From assembly GCA_947167345.1 (NCBI GenBank), contig CAMVHR010000007.1, positions 1-64,000 of the forward strand: a DNA stretch of 64,000 nucleotides. Direction: 5' to 3'. A model generated the notes under the pieces. The model was not told the DNA's origin. It worked only from the letters and a program-made list of their open reading frames with translations, and ran no database searches. Origin of the DNA: an uncultured Treponema sp. (GTDB lineage Bacteria > Spirochaetota > Spirochaetia > Treponematales > Treponemataceae). Made by a program: the position numbers and the translations under genes. Shown in pieces: positions 6,184-11,070 of this stretch (positions within the stretch are counted from its first letter, which is position 1; each line of letters opens with the position of its first letter).

Positions 6184-6217
6184 GCGGATTTTGATGTGAG
6201 TCACGCCACCAACTTTG
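6179..6217 (-). pseudogene. Remnant of an NTF2-fold immunity gene
   Basis: On the minus strand this stretch encodes VGGVTHIKIRKK, nearly identical to VGGMAHIKIRKK in the intact immunity protein at 2784-3164. The DNA is also alike (TTTTGCGGATTTTGATGTGA against the corresponding bases near 2823). Only about 13 codons survive, with no start codon or upstream domain. It is therefore a relic of a second copy, cut off by the trxA terminator on one side and a RhuM remnant on the other. Confidence 0.6.
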
Positions 6218-6412
6218 GAAACAACTGCAGCAGATGGCAAAAACTATAAGACTAATTTCTATAACCTCGATGCCATTATTGCTGTGGGCTACCGCGTGAA
6301 CAGCAAAAAAGCTACTATGTTTCGTATTTGGGCAAACAAAATCCTTAAAGAGTACATCATCAAAGGGTATGTGATGAACGATGAGCGACTAAAAGAACCT
6401 GAATACTATTAA
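6215..6412 (+). pseudogene. Truncated RhuM-family (virulence RhuM) fragment
   Basis: About 65 codons that match the conserved core of RhuM-family proteins: TTAADGKNYKTNFYNLDAIIAVGYRVNSKK, then MFRIWANKILKEYIIKGYVMNDERLK. Full-length RhuM proteins run to roughly 300 residues or more; here both the N-terminal region and the long C-terminal part are missing. The only possible start is TTG with no ribosome site. RhuM genes often travel with restriction and toxin loci. The flank 6413-6535 holds nothing recognisable except a promoter for the next gene. Confidence 0.75.
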
Positions 6413-6535: not shown

Positions 6536-6973
6536 ATGTTGACAATAATCTTTGGTGACTACAAAGACGTAATCTACAATACATCTCTTTATTTCAAGAA
6601 CACTTATGAAGGTTCTTGGCTTTTGGAAAGTAACACAAAGCAGATGATTCTTGACATCGACAAATCGAAAGTTCTTTCTGACGGCGCAGTCGAAAGTCCT
6701 GTTCTTGGAATCATTCCGCCTACACAACTTTCGGGTGGAGTGAAGACGCTTATTTTAATCAGCCATGTGTCAGATAAAGTTTTTAATGCCTCAAACTGTG
6801 GGGACAACTGTGCGGAATGGCTCTTAAAAATCGGTTCGCAAAAAGATGTCACTGTCAATCTTCGGCACATAATGGACTTTGGTGACGGCGAGTTTGAAAT
6901 CAAGATTCAGAACAACGGCAAAATTGTCCACAACATGAAAGAGCTGCTTTTTGAAATCGGAGATTATGTATGA
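6536..6973 (+). CDS. DUF4869-family protein
   Basis: A 145-residue protein that I recall as DUF4869. The features matched are the N-terminal LTIIFGDYKDVIYNTSLYFKNTYE, SPVLGIIPPTQLSGGVKTLILI, the cysteine pair in NASNCGDNCAEWLLKI, and LRHIMDFG near the end. It has no signal peptide. It overlaps the next gene by 4 bp (ATGA). In the family this gene is regularly followed by a P-loop protein, as here. Function is unknown; the cysteine-rich turn could bind metal. An extended -10 promoter precedes it, so it probably starts the operon that continues into mcrB. Confidence 0.75.
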   Translation: MLTIIFGDYKDVIYNTSLYFKNTYEGSWLLESNTKQMILDIDKSKVLSDGAVESPVLGIIPPTQLSGGVKTLILISHVSDKVFNASNCGDNCAEWLLKIGSQKDVTVNLRHIMDFGDGEFEIKIQNNGKIVHNMKELLFEIGDYV

Positions 6974-7440
6974 AAGGTCAGTATTCGATTTCAGTTCAGA
7001 ACAACAAAGTAAAATATGAGTTCTCAATTCGCAGAAACATAACCATTGTTCAAGGCGATAGTGCCACGGGAAAAACCACACTCGTTGACTTGATTCGCGA
7101 ATATCAGCTTGACGGAGCGGACAGCGGAATCAGTCTTTCTTGCAAGAAGAAATGTGTTGTGCTTGAAGGTGCGGATTGGGAACGAAATCTTTCTCTATAT
7201 GATGACTGCATTGTTTTTGTTGATGAAGGAAACCGCTTTATTGCGACTCCTGAGTTTGCACGAGCAATAAAGACGACAGACAATTATTATGTGCTCATAA
7301 CGCGAGAAGGACTTGAAACACTTCCGTACAGCGTGAATGAGATTTACGGAATCCACACTTCAGGGAAATATGCAGATTTGAAACAGGTTTACCACGAGTT
7401 TTATTCGATTAGAGAGGATAGAAAATGGATTATTGGTTAA
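6970..7440 (+). CDS. P-loop protein paired with DUF4869, apparently C-terminally shortened
   Basis: A 156-residue protein with a clear Walker A, GDSATGKTT, near residues 29-37, and a Walker B-like CIVFVDEGNRF near 90-100. It overlaps the DUF4869 gene by 4 bp. As I recall the family, partners run to about 280-300 residues with a second half after the YHEFY segment. Here the protein ends soon after YHEFYSI, and the next gene, mcrB, starts 16 bp before its stop. That suggests recombination replaced the C-terminal half with mcrB. It may still bind ATP; whether it works is unknown. Confidence 0.7.
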   Translation: MKGQYSISVQNNKVKYEFSIRRNITIVQGDSATGKTTLVDLIREYQLDGADSGISLSCKKKCVVLEGADWERNLSLYDDCIVFVDEGNRFIATPEFARAIKTTDNYYVLITREGLETLPYSVNEIYGIHTSGKYADLKQVYHEFYSIREDRKWIIG

Positions 7441-9077
7441 TTAATCCAAAAAGTGAAGGTTCTGGAACTGATTTATCTGGTGAATCTATTGATGAAGTTT
7501 ATATGGGCTGGAATAAAAATGATTGCCCAAAATTTTATGATTCAGTAAAAGCAGGAGATGTGATAATTGTTACTGAGCTTTCTCATGCGAATACAAAACT
7601 TCATTATATTGGTCTTGCACAAAGTTTAGACGAGAAAAATCAATGTTGGTATTTGAAACATTCAACGAAAGAAAAAAATGACGAAATAAAGCAGATTATT
7701 AGAAATAATTCTTCTGAATTCGGCGGTGGAAATTCTCCAAATCCTTGGGGACCAACAAAATCTATTATAAAATTGACAAGTAATCCTGCTGAAAAGAAGG
7801 TTAAAGAAATATTAGCAGCTTTTTTTAAGGAAAAGATTATGAAAGAAAAAATGGAAAAATATGCAAATCTTCTCAAAAATACCCACAACCTAATCCTCCA
7901 CGGCGCACCCGGAACTGGAAAAACGCACCTTGCCCGCGAGATTGCAGCAGAGATGAAAGCGGAAGTCGGCTTTGTGCAGTTCCACCCGTCGTATGATTAC
8001 ACCGATTTTGTTGAAGGCTTGCGACCTGTGAACGACGGCAGCAACGGGCAGATTGGCTTTGAGCGAAAAGACGGCGTGTTCAAGAAGTTCTGCGAGCGGG
8101 CGTTGAAGAACTTGGAGGATAGTAAAAAATTTGTTGCAGAAAAAGAAAGTAAAATATCAACTGAGGATTTATTAGAAACTTTTAAACGCAGTCTAAAAGA
8201 AGAAAAAGAGATTGTTGTGCAAAGTATACGTTCTCCAACAAAACTCACGGTTTTTCTTGATAATGATACTATTAAGGTAAAAATTCCAAAAGGAACGATT
8301 TATTCTACATCACCAGAGAAAATAAGACGATATCTTAAAACTCAAGAATATGATGAAGCACATGATACTTATGAACCTGCAATTGGAAAATATATTTTAG
8401 ATAATGATTCTTGCTGTACTAAAAATCAAGAATTAAAAGATGATTTTGTTACTGCAAATTTAAAGCCCTTCGTCTTCATCATCGACGAAATCAACCGCGG
8501 AGAGATGAGCAAAATCTTTGGCGAGTTGTTCTTTGCGATTGAGCCGGGCTATCGGGGGGCTGAAAAATGCAAGGATTTGCGAACGCAATACGCGAACCTG
8601 CAAACAATCCCGAATCTTTTTGATGTTGCTTTGGGCATCAAAGACAGCGACAATTTCGGGCACTTTTTCATTCCCGAAAACGTCTACATCATCGGCACAA
8701 TGAACGACATCGACCGCAACGTTGAGAGCATGGATTTTGCTTTCCGCAGACGCTTTACTTTCAAAGAAATCACGGCTAAAGAAACACAGGAGCAGATTTT
8801 TTCAGGACTTGACGATGCAATTCGAGATGAAGCGATTTTCCGCATGGATTCATTGAACGACGCAATTTCTAACATCGAAGGTCTTTCTTCCGCTTATCAC
8901 ATCGGCGGTGCGTATTTCTTGAAGCTAAAGGACTTGAACAACGATTTCGGCTTGCTCTGGGAATACCACCTTGAAGGGCTTTTGCGCGAGTATCTTCGCG
9001 GAATGGAAGATGCGGATTCAAAACTTAGTCAGTTGAAAGAGGCTTATGATTGCCAAAAAAATGAGGAAAATTCCTGA
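7425..9077 (+). CDS. mcrB: McrB-type AAA+ GTPase with EVE/PUA-like N-terminal domain
   Basis: The motor subunit of a type IV (McrBC-like) restriction system, 550 residues. Residues 1-120 form a separate domain starting MDYWLINP that resembles EVE/PUA-type modified-base readers (inference). The AAA+ part has Walker A GAPGTGKTH (160-168), the McrB-type Walker B FIIDEINRG with SKIFGELF (351-370), the sensor GTMNDIDR (424-431) and arginines in AFRRRF. McrB enzymes hydrolyse GTP and hand DNA to the McrC nuclease, encoded at 9694. Codons 1-140 and about 230-340 are visibly more AT-rich than the AAA core, suggesting a mosaic gene. The start overlaps the preceding P-loop gene. Confidence 0.9.
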   Translation: MDYWLINPKSEGSGTDLSGESIDEVYMGWNKNDCPKFYDSVKAGDVIIVTELSHANTKLHYIGLAQSLDEKNQCWYLKHSTKEKNDEIKQIIRNNSSEFGGGNSPNPWGPTKSIIKLTSNPAEKKVKEILAAFFKEKIMKEKMEKYANLLKNTHNLILHGAPGTGKTHLAREIAAEMKAEVGFVQFHPSYDYTDFVEGLRPVNDGSNGQIGFERKDGVFKKFCERALKNLEDSKKFVAEKESKISTEDLLETFKRSLKEEKEIVVQSIRSPTKLTVFLDNDTIKVKIPKGTIYSTSPEKIRRYLKTQEYDEAHDTYEPAIGKYILDNDSCCTKNQELKDDFVTANLKPFVFIIDEINRGEMSKIFGELFFAIEPGYRGAEKCKDLRTQYANLQTIPNLFDVALGIKDSDNFGHFFIPENVYIIGTMNDIDRNVESMDFAFRRRFTFKEITAKETQEQIFSGLDDAIRDEAIFRMDSLNDAISNIEGLSSAYHIGGAYFLKLKDLNNDFGLLWEYHLEGLLREYLRGMEDADSKLSQLKEAYDCQKNEENS

Positions 9078-9082
9078 AAATA

Positions 9083-9091
9083 TGATATAAT
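9083..9091 (+). promoter_or_regulatory. Extended -10 promoter for the toxin-antitoxin pair
   Basis: TGATATAAT (TATAAT at 9086-9091) lies just after the mcrB stop codon and 16 bp before the antitoxin start, separated from it by an AAGGAGG ribosome site. It would let the toxin-antitoxin pair, and mcrC behind it, be transcribed independently of mcrB. Confidence 0.6.
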
Positions 9092-9107
9092 TTGTTAAGG
9101 AGGCCTT

Positions 9108-9362
9108 ATGAGTGATTTTGCCTATGCATATTTTAATTCTGAATTGGATAAATTGGATATTCCGTCGCTTGAAGGGATTTTTGAAAAAGTCCAGGCTCTG
9201 TTGGCAAAAAAAAGAGCAATTCAAAATGAATCAGAAATCAATCAGGCTGAAGTTGACCGCATAAATGCTGTTTATGACAAAATCCCAAAAGAAGAGCAGC
9301 TTGAAATAGCTCATGCTTCGATGCGCACAATGTGGGAGGCTTTAAAAGATGACACGTGGTGA
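9108..9362 (+). CDS. Antitoxin of a MazEF/PemIK-type pair
   Basis: An 84-residue, mostly helical, acidic protein immediately upstream of and overlapping (14 bp) a MazF/PemK toxin gene. It is called an antitoxin mainly from this arrangement and size; it lacks an obvious AbrB-type DNA-binding N-terminus, so it may bind only the toxin. A strong AAGGAGG ribosome site precedes the ATG, and an extended -10 promoter lies just upstream. The pair interrupts the usual mcrB-mcrC junction. Confidence 0.75.
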   Translation: MSDFAYAYFNSELDKLDIPSLEGIFEKVQALLAKKRAIQNESEINQAEVDRINAVYDKIPKEEQLEIAHASMRTMWEALKDDTW

Positions 9363-9687
9363 AATCTGGTGGGTGGATTTTGGACTCGCTTACGGAAGTA
9401 TGACACTAGGGCGAAGACCTGCAATTATAGTGCAAAATGATAATTTTAATGCCAGCCGAATTATGACAACGGTGGTAGTTCCCCTTACAACAAATCTTCT
9501 GCTTGCTGAGTACAAGGATAATATTCTTTTGGAAAAATCTGTTACAAAACTTAAAAAGGATTCGGTTGCTTTGATTCCGCAAATTGGAAACGTTGATAAA
9601 TCTTGCCTCGTTGAGAAAATTTCAAAACTGTCTCCTGCAAAAATGCTCGAAATTTCACATGCAATTTCAGATTTATTGGCTATATAG
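9349..9687 (+). CDS. MazF/PemK-type endoribonuclease toxin
   Basis: A 112-residue protein with the MazF/PemK hallmarks: RGEIWWVDFG at residues 3-12, GRRPAIIVQND (catalytic-type Arg and the beta-strand core), TTVVVPLTTN, and the C-terminal DSVALIPQIGNVDKSCL with ISKLSPAKM. MazF toxins cleave mRNA at short sequences when their antitoxin is lost. The gene overlaps its antitoxin by 14 bp, and mcrC begins 6 bp after its stop, so all three are probably on one message. It appears intact. Confidence 0.92.
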   Translation: MTRGEIWWVDFGLAYGSMTLGRRPAIIVQNDNFNASRIMTTVVVPLTTNLLLAEYKDNILLEKSVTKLKKDSVALIPQIGNVDKSCLVEKISKLSPAKMLEISHAISDLLAI

Positions 9688-9693
9688 ATTTTT

Positions 9694-11070
9694 ATGAACC
9701 TTTGCACAACCGACAACAACTGCGGCATTTCGTTCAACAAGTTGGAAACTGATGGAAAAGAGTCGACTAAATCCGACTACGACAATCTTTCAAAAATCGC
9801 GAACACGCCGCTTTCTGAGCTCGTAAAAAACAATCCATCTCTTTTGATTTTTCCCAAAGTTCTGGGCGTTTACGATGACGGAATTGAAGATGAAGAAATC
9901 TTTAATTTGCATGGAAATCCAGAAAAACTTGAAGATGTAAATCTGAAAACTGGAAATCTGATGGGCTTTGTAGGAATCGGCGACACTCAGCTGAAAATCT
10001 CCTCGCGCTTTGCAAAAGACGATGAGCACGACTTTTTTCTGCATTATATGCTTGAGAAAGTTTTTTCAATCAATCTTTTTGATTTTGAGAACCAGATTTC
10101 AAAAGACGGCGCGCTTGATTTGCTGATGTTTTCTTTTCCGCCGCTTTTGAAAAAGGCTCTTTCAAAGGGAATCTTTCGGCAGTATCAGACTTTCGCTCGG
10201 AACGACGCGAATGTGAAGGGCGTTCTCGACGTGAGCCGTCATATCAAGCAGAATATCCCTTTCTGCGGAAAAATCTCCTACAACAGCCGCGAGCGCACTT
10301 TCGATAACGCCGTGACAGAACTCATTCGGCACACGATTGAAGCGATAAAAACAAAATCGTTCGGAAATGCAGTTTTGAACTGCGACAGCGAAACAAAAAA
10401 ATGCGTTCAGGAAATCCTCGAATCAACGCCAAATTATGACATTCACAACCGTGAAAAAGTGATTGCCCAAAACTTGAAGCCCATAACTCACCCGTATTTC
10501 ATCGCGTACAAACCGCTTCAAAAGCTCTGCCTTGCCATTCTTCGCCACAAGAAAATCGGTTTTGGAAACGAAAAGAACAAAGCGTACGGAATTCTTTTTG
10601 ACGGCGCGTGGCTTTGGGAGGAATATCTTGCGACGATTCTTGTTTCAAACGGCTTTAAGCATCCGAGAAATAAAGAAAGCAGGGGTGGAATTAGAATGTT
10701 TTCAAATGAGAGCGATGAGAATAATTTTGACAGGAATTATCGTCGCATTTATCCAGATTTTTATAAGTCCGATGAATGTATTTTTGATGCAAAATATAAA
10801 AGGTTGCAAAATGGTGTCAGTCGAGAAGATTTGTATCAAATTGTGACTTATATGCACACAATGCGAATCAATAAAGGCGGATTCCTGTATCCGAAAGAAG
10901 TTTATCCAATGCTTGAATCAGCACAAGTCTTTAAAAATAAATATAGTCTTGCAGGCTACGGTGGAGCTGTCGCAATTTACGGTGTTCCGATTTCTGTAAA
11001 GCGAACGTATCGCGAGTTTGTGGAGTTTATGAAAGAAATTGAAGATGTCATAAGAAAATATGACTGGTAA
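9694..11070 (+). CDS. mcrC: McrC-type nuclease subunit
   Basis: A 458-residue partner of McrB. The N-terminal region (about 1-200) is the McrB-interacting domain, with FVGIGDTQLKISSRF and the block VKGVLDVSRHIKQN. The C-terminal PD-(D/E)xK nuclease shows E310 in WLWEEY, IYPDF (352-356) and DAKYK (365-369), the expected D/DxK catalytic set. It cuts DNA recognised and translocated on by McrB. It lies 617 bp after mcrB, separated only by the toxin-antitoxin pair. The last third is more AT-rich than the first two thirds, like parts of mcrB. All key residues are present, so the system looks functional. Confidence 0.92.
   Translation: MNLCTTDNNCGISFNKLETDGKESTKSDYDNLSKIANTPLSELVKNNPSLLIFPKVLGVYDDGIEDEEIFNLHGNPEKLEDVNLKTGNLMGFVGIGDTQLKISSRFAKDDEHDFFLHYMLEKVFSINLFDFENQISKDGALDLLMFSFPPLLKKALSKGIFRQYQTFARNDANVKGVLDVSRHIKQNIPFCGKISYNSRERTFDNAVTELIRHTIEAIKTKSFGNAVLNCDSETKKCVQEILESTPNYDIHNREKVIAQNLKPITHPYFIAYKPLQKLCLAILRHKKIGFGNEKNKAYGILFDGAWLWEEYLATILVSNGFKHPRNKESRGGIRMFSNESDENNFDRNYRRIYPDFYKSDECIFDAKYKRLQNGVSREDLYQIVTYMHTMRINKGGFLYPKEVYPMLESAQVFKNKYSLAGYGGAVAIYGVPISVKRTYREFVEFMKEIEDVIRKYDW

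Follow-up and report, generated by a model that had tools for sequence, protein, structure and literature searches.

We analysed the mcrBC locus of the window, by which we mean the whole 64-kb stretch of DNA under study (genome G000). Four genes follow one another here on the + strand: mcrB (7425–9077), an antitoxin gene (9108–9362), a toxin gene (9349–9687) and mcrC (9694–11070). McrB is the GTPase/AAA+ subunit of a McrBC-type restriction system (Pfam AAA_5, E 3.4e-17); it also matches the NCBIfam model PRK11331.1 with E 5e-34, yet far under the cut-off of that model. McrC is the nuclease subunit (PF10117, E 1.7e-51). At the level of genes the locus is thus a McrBC type IV system, in which the McrB GTPase gene adjoins a PF10117 McrC gene with the toxin–antitoxin (TA) pair between them. 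According to the reading frames, the antitoxin gene comes first and overlaps the toxin gene by 14 nt, and mcrC starts 6 bp past the toxin stop, a distance that an earlier note on this DNA had given correctly. The same note had placed a TA pair exactly between mcrB and mcrC, which is borne out by the frames, by the protein families and by recurrence in three further genomes, G112, G159 and G005 (the last with a deleted toxin). Since the arrangement recurs in this way, it is not due to chance.

The first 140 residues of McrB (window 7425–7844) have no match in Pfam and no relative among solved structures and are, judged from sequence, an unclassified recognition domain. An EVE-like N-terminus, which had been suspected by eye, found no support from either source.

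The toxin (112 aa) is by homology a MazF/PemK-family endoribonuclease. Pfam model PF02452 (PemK_toxin) covers residues 3–109, the whole domain, with E 8.1e-23 and 81.2 bits (cut-off 23.1), and the nearest solved relative is Mycobacterium tuberculosis MazF6 (5hk0, E 1.4e-17). The protein carries GRRP (residue 21) and VPLTTN (residue 44), the motifs that bear the catalytic Arg and Thr; GRRP aligns with the RRP stretch of MazF6. The antitoxin (84 aa) is a two-part protein and is predicted to be all-helical, with low confidence, by a structure model built from five sequences (pLDDT 68.7). For this protein, Pfam yields no match above cut-off and NCBIfam none at all, and hits among solved structures do not exceed chance level. 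MazE-type antitoxins have an AbrB-like DNA-binding fold. The description of the pair as 'MazEF-type' therefore stands for the toxin, on the strength of PF02452, and falls for the antitoxin, for which neither Pfam nor NCBIfam offers a MazE model and no solved structure is related. The layout is nevertheless that of a type II TA system, with adjacent and co-conserved genes and the antitoxin first. Between G000 and G112, pN/pS is 0.13 for the antitoxin as well as for the toxin, which indicates strong constraint on codon substitution (purifying selection) in both genes.

An extended −10 element, TGATATAAT, lies on the + strand at 9083–9091, 5 bp past the mcrB stop, and is the probable promoter of the pair. 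It is followed on the same strand by the Shine–Dalgarno sequence of the antitoxin gene, AGGAGG (9098–9103). The element TGNTATAAT is exact (8/8) in all four junction copies of the pair (G000, G112, G159 and G005) and is matched at 7/8 in four copies that lie outside mcrBC. No good −35 for TGATATAAT was recognised by eye. The suggestion that the pair has its own promoter gains support from the extended −10 just past mcrB and from its conservation in 4/4 junction copies. The predicted transcription start, about 7 nt past the −10, would coincide with the Shine–Dalgarno sequence or adjoin it, which would make the leader very short. In the 64-kb window as a whole, TGNTATAAT occurs exactly seven times when both strands are taken together, and all seven occurrences are on the + strand and none on the − strand.

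No Shine–Dalgarno sequence precedes mcrC in G000, G112 or G005 (SD score 0 in the window), and its translation is therefore probably coupled to the preceding gene, which is mcrB in empty loci and the toxin gene in carriers of the pair. If so, the pair would have a say in the level of McrC, and the cassette may supply both the promoter and the translation for mcrC.

Upstream, the gene string is headed by a DUF4869 gene (6536–6973, + strand; PF16163, E 1.9e-56), followed by a P-loop ATPase gene (6970–7440, + strand) that overlaps the start of mcrB. Its truncation is evident from the lengths of its homologues, most of those listed having open frames of 324–363 aa; the homologue in G131 is 93% identical. 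In G112, a 91% identical and equally truncated copy of 152 aa stands before mcrB, and there too the end of a DUF4869 gene precedes the ATPase (L128). Since the ATPase is cut short alike in G000 and G112 and mcrB starts inside its end, the arrangement suggests that mcrBC landed in the ATPase gene. Further upstream, at 6215–6412, the window holds a RhuM-family fragment of 65 aa (PF13310, E 3.1e-27).

To describe the distribution of the pair, we searched the whole genus pool. A close pair (antitoxin E ≤ 1e-15) is present in 7 of 200 same-genus genomes, in four of them in the mcrB|mcrC junction and in three elsewhere. The junction pair is intact in G000, G112 and G159. G005 keeps an open antitoxin gene there; its toxin gene has lost the central part by deletion, so that roughly 17 codons at the start and the 3′ end survive, and the toxin frame stops early in this scar. 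Both mcrB and mcrC are open in all four junction carriers, the contig of G159 beginning inside mcrB. As G005 has lost its toxin beside an open antitoxin and an intact mcrBC, the pair is dispensable in that genome. The last mcrB codons and the promoter stretch are almost letter-identical in G000 and G112, and the sequence around the −10 differs in G005. The closest McrC relatives of the window protein, in G143 (78%) and G050 (74%), come from loci with an empty junction: mcrB and mcrC overlap by 4 nt in G143, and mcrB ends 5 bp before mcrC in G050.

Outside mcrBC, the toxin is frameshifted in G126 and open in G169 and G186. In the stretches examined, no McrBC was found in the flanks of these three pairs, and in none of the seven same-genus carriers does a close pair lie directly beside mcrBC but outside the junction. 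An eighth copy (L130, from a Spirochaetaceae genome, water deer) has no McrBC within its 12 kb. Just upstream of the displaced pair of G126 (L079, 8531–8753), the sequence reads by eye like the tail of what is presumably a TaqI-type DNA methyltransferase. The locus of G169 (L103) is array-like, but a repeat search returned no regularly spaced attC-like element and an integron cassette origin was discarded. A phage or plasmid origin was likewise rejected, as tblastn with the antitoxin gave no match in 72,556 plasmid records or 50,697 phage records, and no relative was found among viral contigs.

We then compared the history of the pair with that of its flanks. A 20-row tree of McrC rejects the four carriers as one clade (AU p 1.1e-76), and the C-terminal 200 residues of McrB reject it weakly (p 0.015); a single clade of carrier mcrBC loci can thus be dismissed. 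In a tree of the eight pair copies, the junction copies as one clade are neither supported nor rejected (AU p 0.11), so repeated insertion is not separable from one insertion followed by recombination and loss.

The comparison of G112 with G159 is more telling. Their rpoB genes are only 77.9% identical (dS 1.30), and mcrB and mcrC each have a dS of 0.47, whereas the pair shows 3 synonymous changes in about 130 synonymous sites (dS about 0.02) and encodes identical proteins. The block of near-identity (445–1193 of L102) has 4 mismatches in 749 nt, against 22/194 and 45/307 in the stretches beside it, and reaches from 124 nt before the end of mcrB across the entire pair to nt 10 of mcrC. This is not accounted for by synonymous constraint, since the same pair genes have a dS of about 1.6–2.0 between G000 and G112. 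Hence the pair travels on its own, independently of mcrB and mcrC, into the same slot. Probably mcrBC was transferred from one species to a distant one, and the pair later moved a second time, either into mcrBC loci or from one such locus to another. G112 and G159 are metagenome-assembled genomes, and a mis-assembly at the pair in either of them would remove this strongest evidence for transfer.

Among related gut bacteria, the junction also accepts other genes. Our survey of the family took in 69 McrC places, a part of those listed; 50 have both genes on one strand, and the remaining 19, at contig edges or too divergent for the profiles, were left out. The gap between the two genes is below 250 bp in 42 of the 50 junctions and larger in eight. 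Seven of these hold cargo, namely the pair or its remnant (4), type II restriction–modification (R-M) systems (2) and RhuM (1), and the eighth (G239) is explained by a broken mcrC. All cargo is in the orientation of the operon. The junction of G084 (L065, 4206–6031) contains a complete EcoRI-type R-M system, made up of an endonuclease of the EcoRI family and a methyltransferase, and that of G021 (L066, 3433–7112) contains EcoRI- and EcoRV-family systems, each with its methyltransferase. These methyltransferases belong to the N6/N4 and D12 families; LlaJI-type methyltransferases, which we considered for both junctions, are excluded by this and by the EcoRI-/EcoRV-family endonucleases. In G243 (L168, 4058–5104), a RhuM-family gene begins 1 bp past the mcrB stop and overlaps the mcrC start by 4 nt.

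Between G084 and G021, cargo dS is 0.08 and 0.14 and that of rpoB 0.10, compared with 0.35 for mcrB and 0.30 for mcrC; by these values the cargo matches rpoB and once more stands out as a block from the genes beside it. Outside the family, none of the 19 junctions resolved (of 21) has an insert of at least 250 bp. The census covers the junction itself, with the flanks upstream of mcrB and downstream of mcrC outside the count, and does not imply that cargo in general prefers the junction to the flanks. The earlier note had named random insertion positions without linkage as the outcome that would speak against it; instead, four copies share one junction and other modules are found there too. 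The comparison of mcrBC loci across treponemes that it proposed bears it out in part: the pair recurs in 4 of the 50 family junctions, but three of the seven close pairs lie elsewhere.

The reading we favour, with some reservation, is that the locus carries a working type II TA cassette (a MazF-family RNase with a modular, non-MazE antitoxin) that has its own extended −10 and ribosome-binding site and sits in the mcrB|mcrC junction with neither gene damaged, mainly preserving itself and stabilising the locus as a side effect. It builds on the anatomy, purifying selection, recurrence in the same junction, flank-independent exchange and toxin loss in one lineage, all of which can be read from the sequences themselves. 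The antitoxin would normally bind and block the MazF RNase. A cell that lost the cassette, and with it the surrounding mcrBC segment, would be poisoned by the longer-lived toxin thus set free; the cassette would in this way mainly preserve itself, and stabilisation of the restriction locus, which the earlier note had suggested, is a plausible by-product. Conserved operon sequence flanks the junction, so a cassette present in one mcrBC locus could reach others through homologous recombination in the 3′ end of mcrB and in mcrC. The cassette promoter would also drive transcription into mcrC. The toxin deletion in G005 and the toxin frameshift in G126 argue against this explanation.

Taken together with its other cargo, the junction looks like a docking slot for self-preserving genes and not like a proven suicide trigger. 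A more ambitious version would see in the mcrB|mcrC junction of treponemes a specialised docking slot for addiction-type modules in general (TA pairs, EcoRI-/EcoRV-type R-M systems and RhuM). Recombination via the conserved end of mcrB would swap this cargo from one mcrBC locus to another, and the cargo would bring both the transcription and the translation of mcrC under its control, guard the locus against loss and add a second layer when McrBC fails. In this full form we consider the proposal doubtful.

It is unlikely that the self-preserving cassette we favour is instead a passive hitchhiker in a defence-gene scrapyard, placed where it has no bearing on McrBC and retained or lost as any TA module would be. 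Occurrence of the same pair elsewhere in other genomes, the two damaged toxins, and the RhuM fragment and truncated ATPase next door would all be expected on that account, but the concentration of four of the seven close pairs of the genus in one particular junction, the recent transfer into the same slot and the purifying selection on both genes would not.

The signals around the pair raise the further possibility of a regulatory insert, in which a promoter autoregulated by the antitoxin–toxin complex, together with coupling to the toxin gene, would set the amount of McrC, and stress that destroys the antitoxin would raise it. Consistent with this, the extended −10 is conserved in every junction copy though the surroundings differ in G005, a strong Shine–Dalgarno sequence stands before the antitoxin gene and none before mcrC in the three genomes named above, and mcrC overlaps or nearly touches mcrB in empty junctions. 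We nevertheless judge it improbable, as no shared operator was identified and, with the toxin frame of G005 ending early in the scar while mcrC is open, coupling to mcrC would be broken there.

The earlier note had also suggested an abortive-infection arm that senses McrBC. This is the least probable reading: a toxin freed when McrBC is inhibited or engaged, by analogy with PrrC, which is freed when phage T4 Stp blocks EcoprrI, would suit the placement exactly inside a restriction operon, the restriction-coupled toxins PrrC, PARIS and Ronin described in the accessible text of PMC12409349, and the acceptance by the junction of RhuM, a proposed toxin of R-M loci (PMC3710099, accessible part), but nothing was found in its support beyond such parallels, the pair stands without McrBC in the examined flanks of three of seven carriers and moves independently of mcrB and mcrC, its antitoxin is not MazE, and G005 kept an intact mcrBC without the toxin. 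Moreover, the N-terminal part of McrB differs between G000 and G112 (226/418 nt identical) while the pair is conserved, which makes a fixed protein contact there unlikely.

Compared with known MazF/PemK type II systems, the window pair agrees in its full-length PF02452 toxin, gene order, overlap and own promoter, and differs in the non-MazE antitoxin and in its placement in a restriction operon. Toxin genes inside restriction loci are mostly known from type I systems, and the LlaJI subunits are kin to McrB and McrC. LlaJI-type operons, with McrB/C-like subunits and two methyltransferases, resemble our loci in joining such subunits with further modules; all four LlaJI proteins are needed together, as far as the available portion of PMC11779793 states, whereas the cargo here is a self-sufficient TA pair or, in G084 and G021, complete R-M systems of EcoRI/EcoRV type. 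In the pneumococcal SpnIV tvr locus, a TA pair likewise lies between subunit genes of a restriction system: tvrAT, homologous to Phd-Doc, separates hsdM and hsdR (PMC6265443). That locus differs in being type I R-M, in its TA family and in the adjoining recombinase. The accessible part of the same paper reports that addiction was tested with no evidence for it, and that the pair limited transcription of the recombinase (PMC6265443). EcoprrI–PrrC, PARIS and Ronin share with the window locus a translation-blocking toxin that is attached to restriction or senses attack on it (PMC12409349, from the text accessible). The restriction enzyme itself keeps PrrC in check, whereas the window toxin has its own antitoxin and also occurs without McrBC; an obligate linkage of the PrrC kind is not what we see, given the three displaced same-genus pairs and L130.

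RhuM is known from R-M loci, and a toxin role has been proposed for it (PMC3710099, in the part available). The McrBC census describes many associations, and its accessible text names no TA pair between mcrB and mcrC (PMC11090510). We recognised no published description of such a pair in the literature searched, subscription journals lying mostly outside that search. The most useful new facts are that unrelated self-preserving modules repeatedly use one type IV junction and that this pair moves alone into the same slot. Repeated use and independent movement make a long-standing question testable: whether such modules occur in defence operons because they stabilise the operon, because they serve it as a backup, or merely because it is an easy place to land.

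The finding brings with it a modular antitoxin family that had not been classified before and is common to MazF and PIN toxins. Relatives of the antitoxin (E ≤ 0.01) are present in 42 of 146 same-genus genomes, and the partner genes at 29 loci examined reveal its two-part build. The C-terminal part (about residues 44–84) ends in ...DTW or ...DSW over the toxin start MTRGE and precedes MazF-family genes in many same-genus loci, where it is joined to differing N-terminal parts; one such partner (L008) carries an HTH_3 domain by Pfam. The N-terminal part (MSDFAYAYF...) also precedes short non-MazF genes, of which those of L017 and L007 encode PIN domain proteins by Pfam, the others being judged by eye. 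Since this part is common to PIN and MazF antitoxins, toxin and antitoxin halves are swapped within the genus. The antitoxins of PIN or PIN-like toxins that share the MSDFAYAYF... part with the MazF antitoxin are those of L007, L016, L017, L020 and L021.
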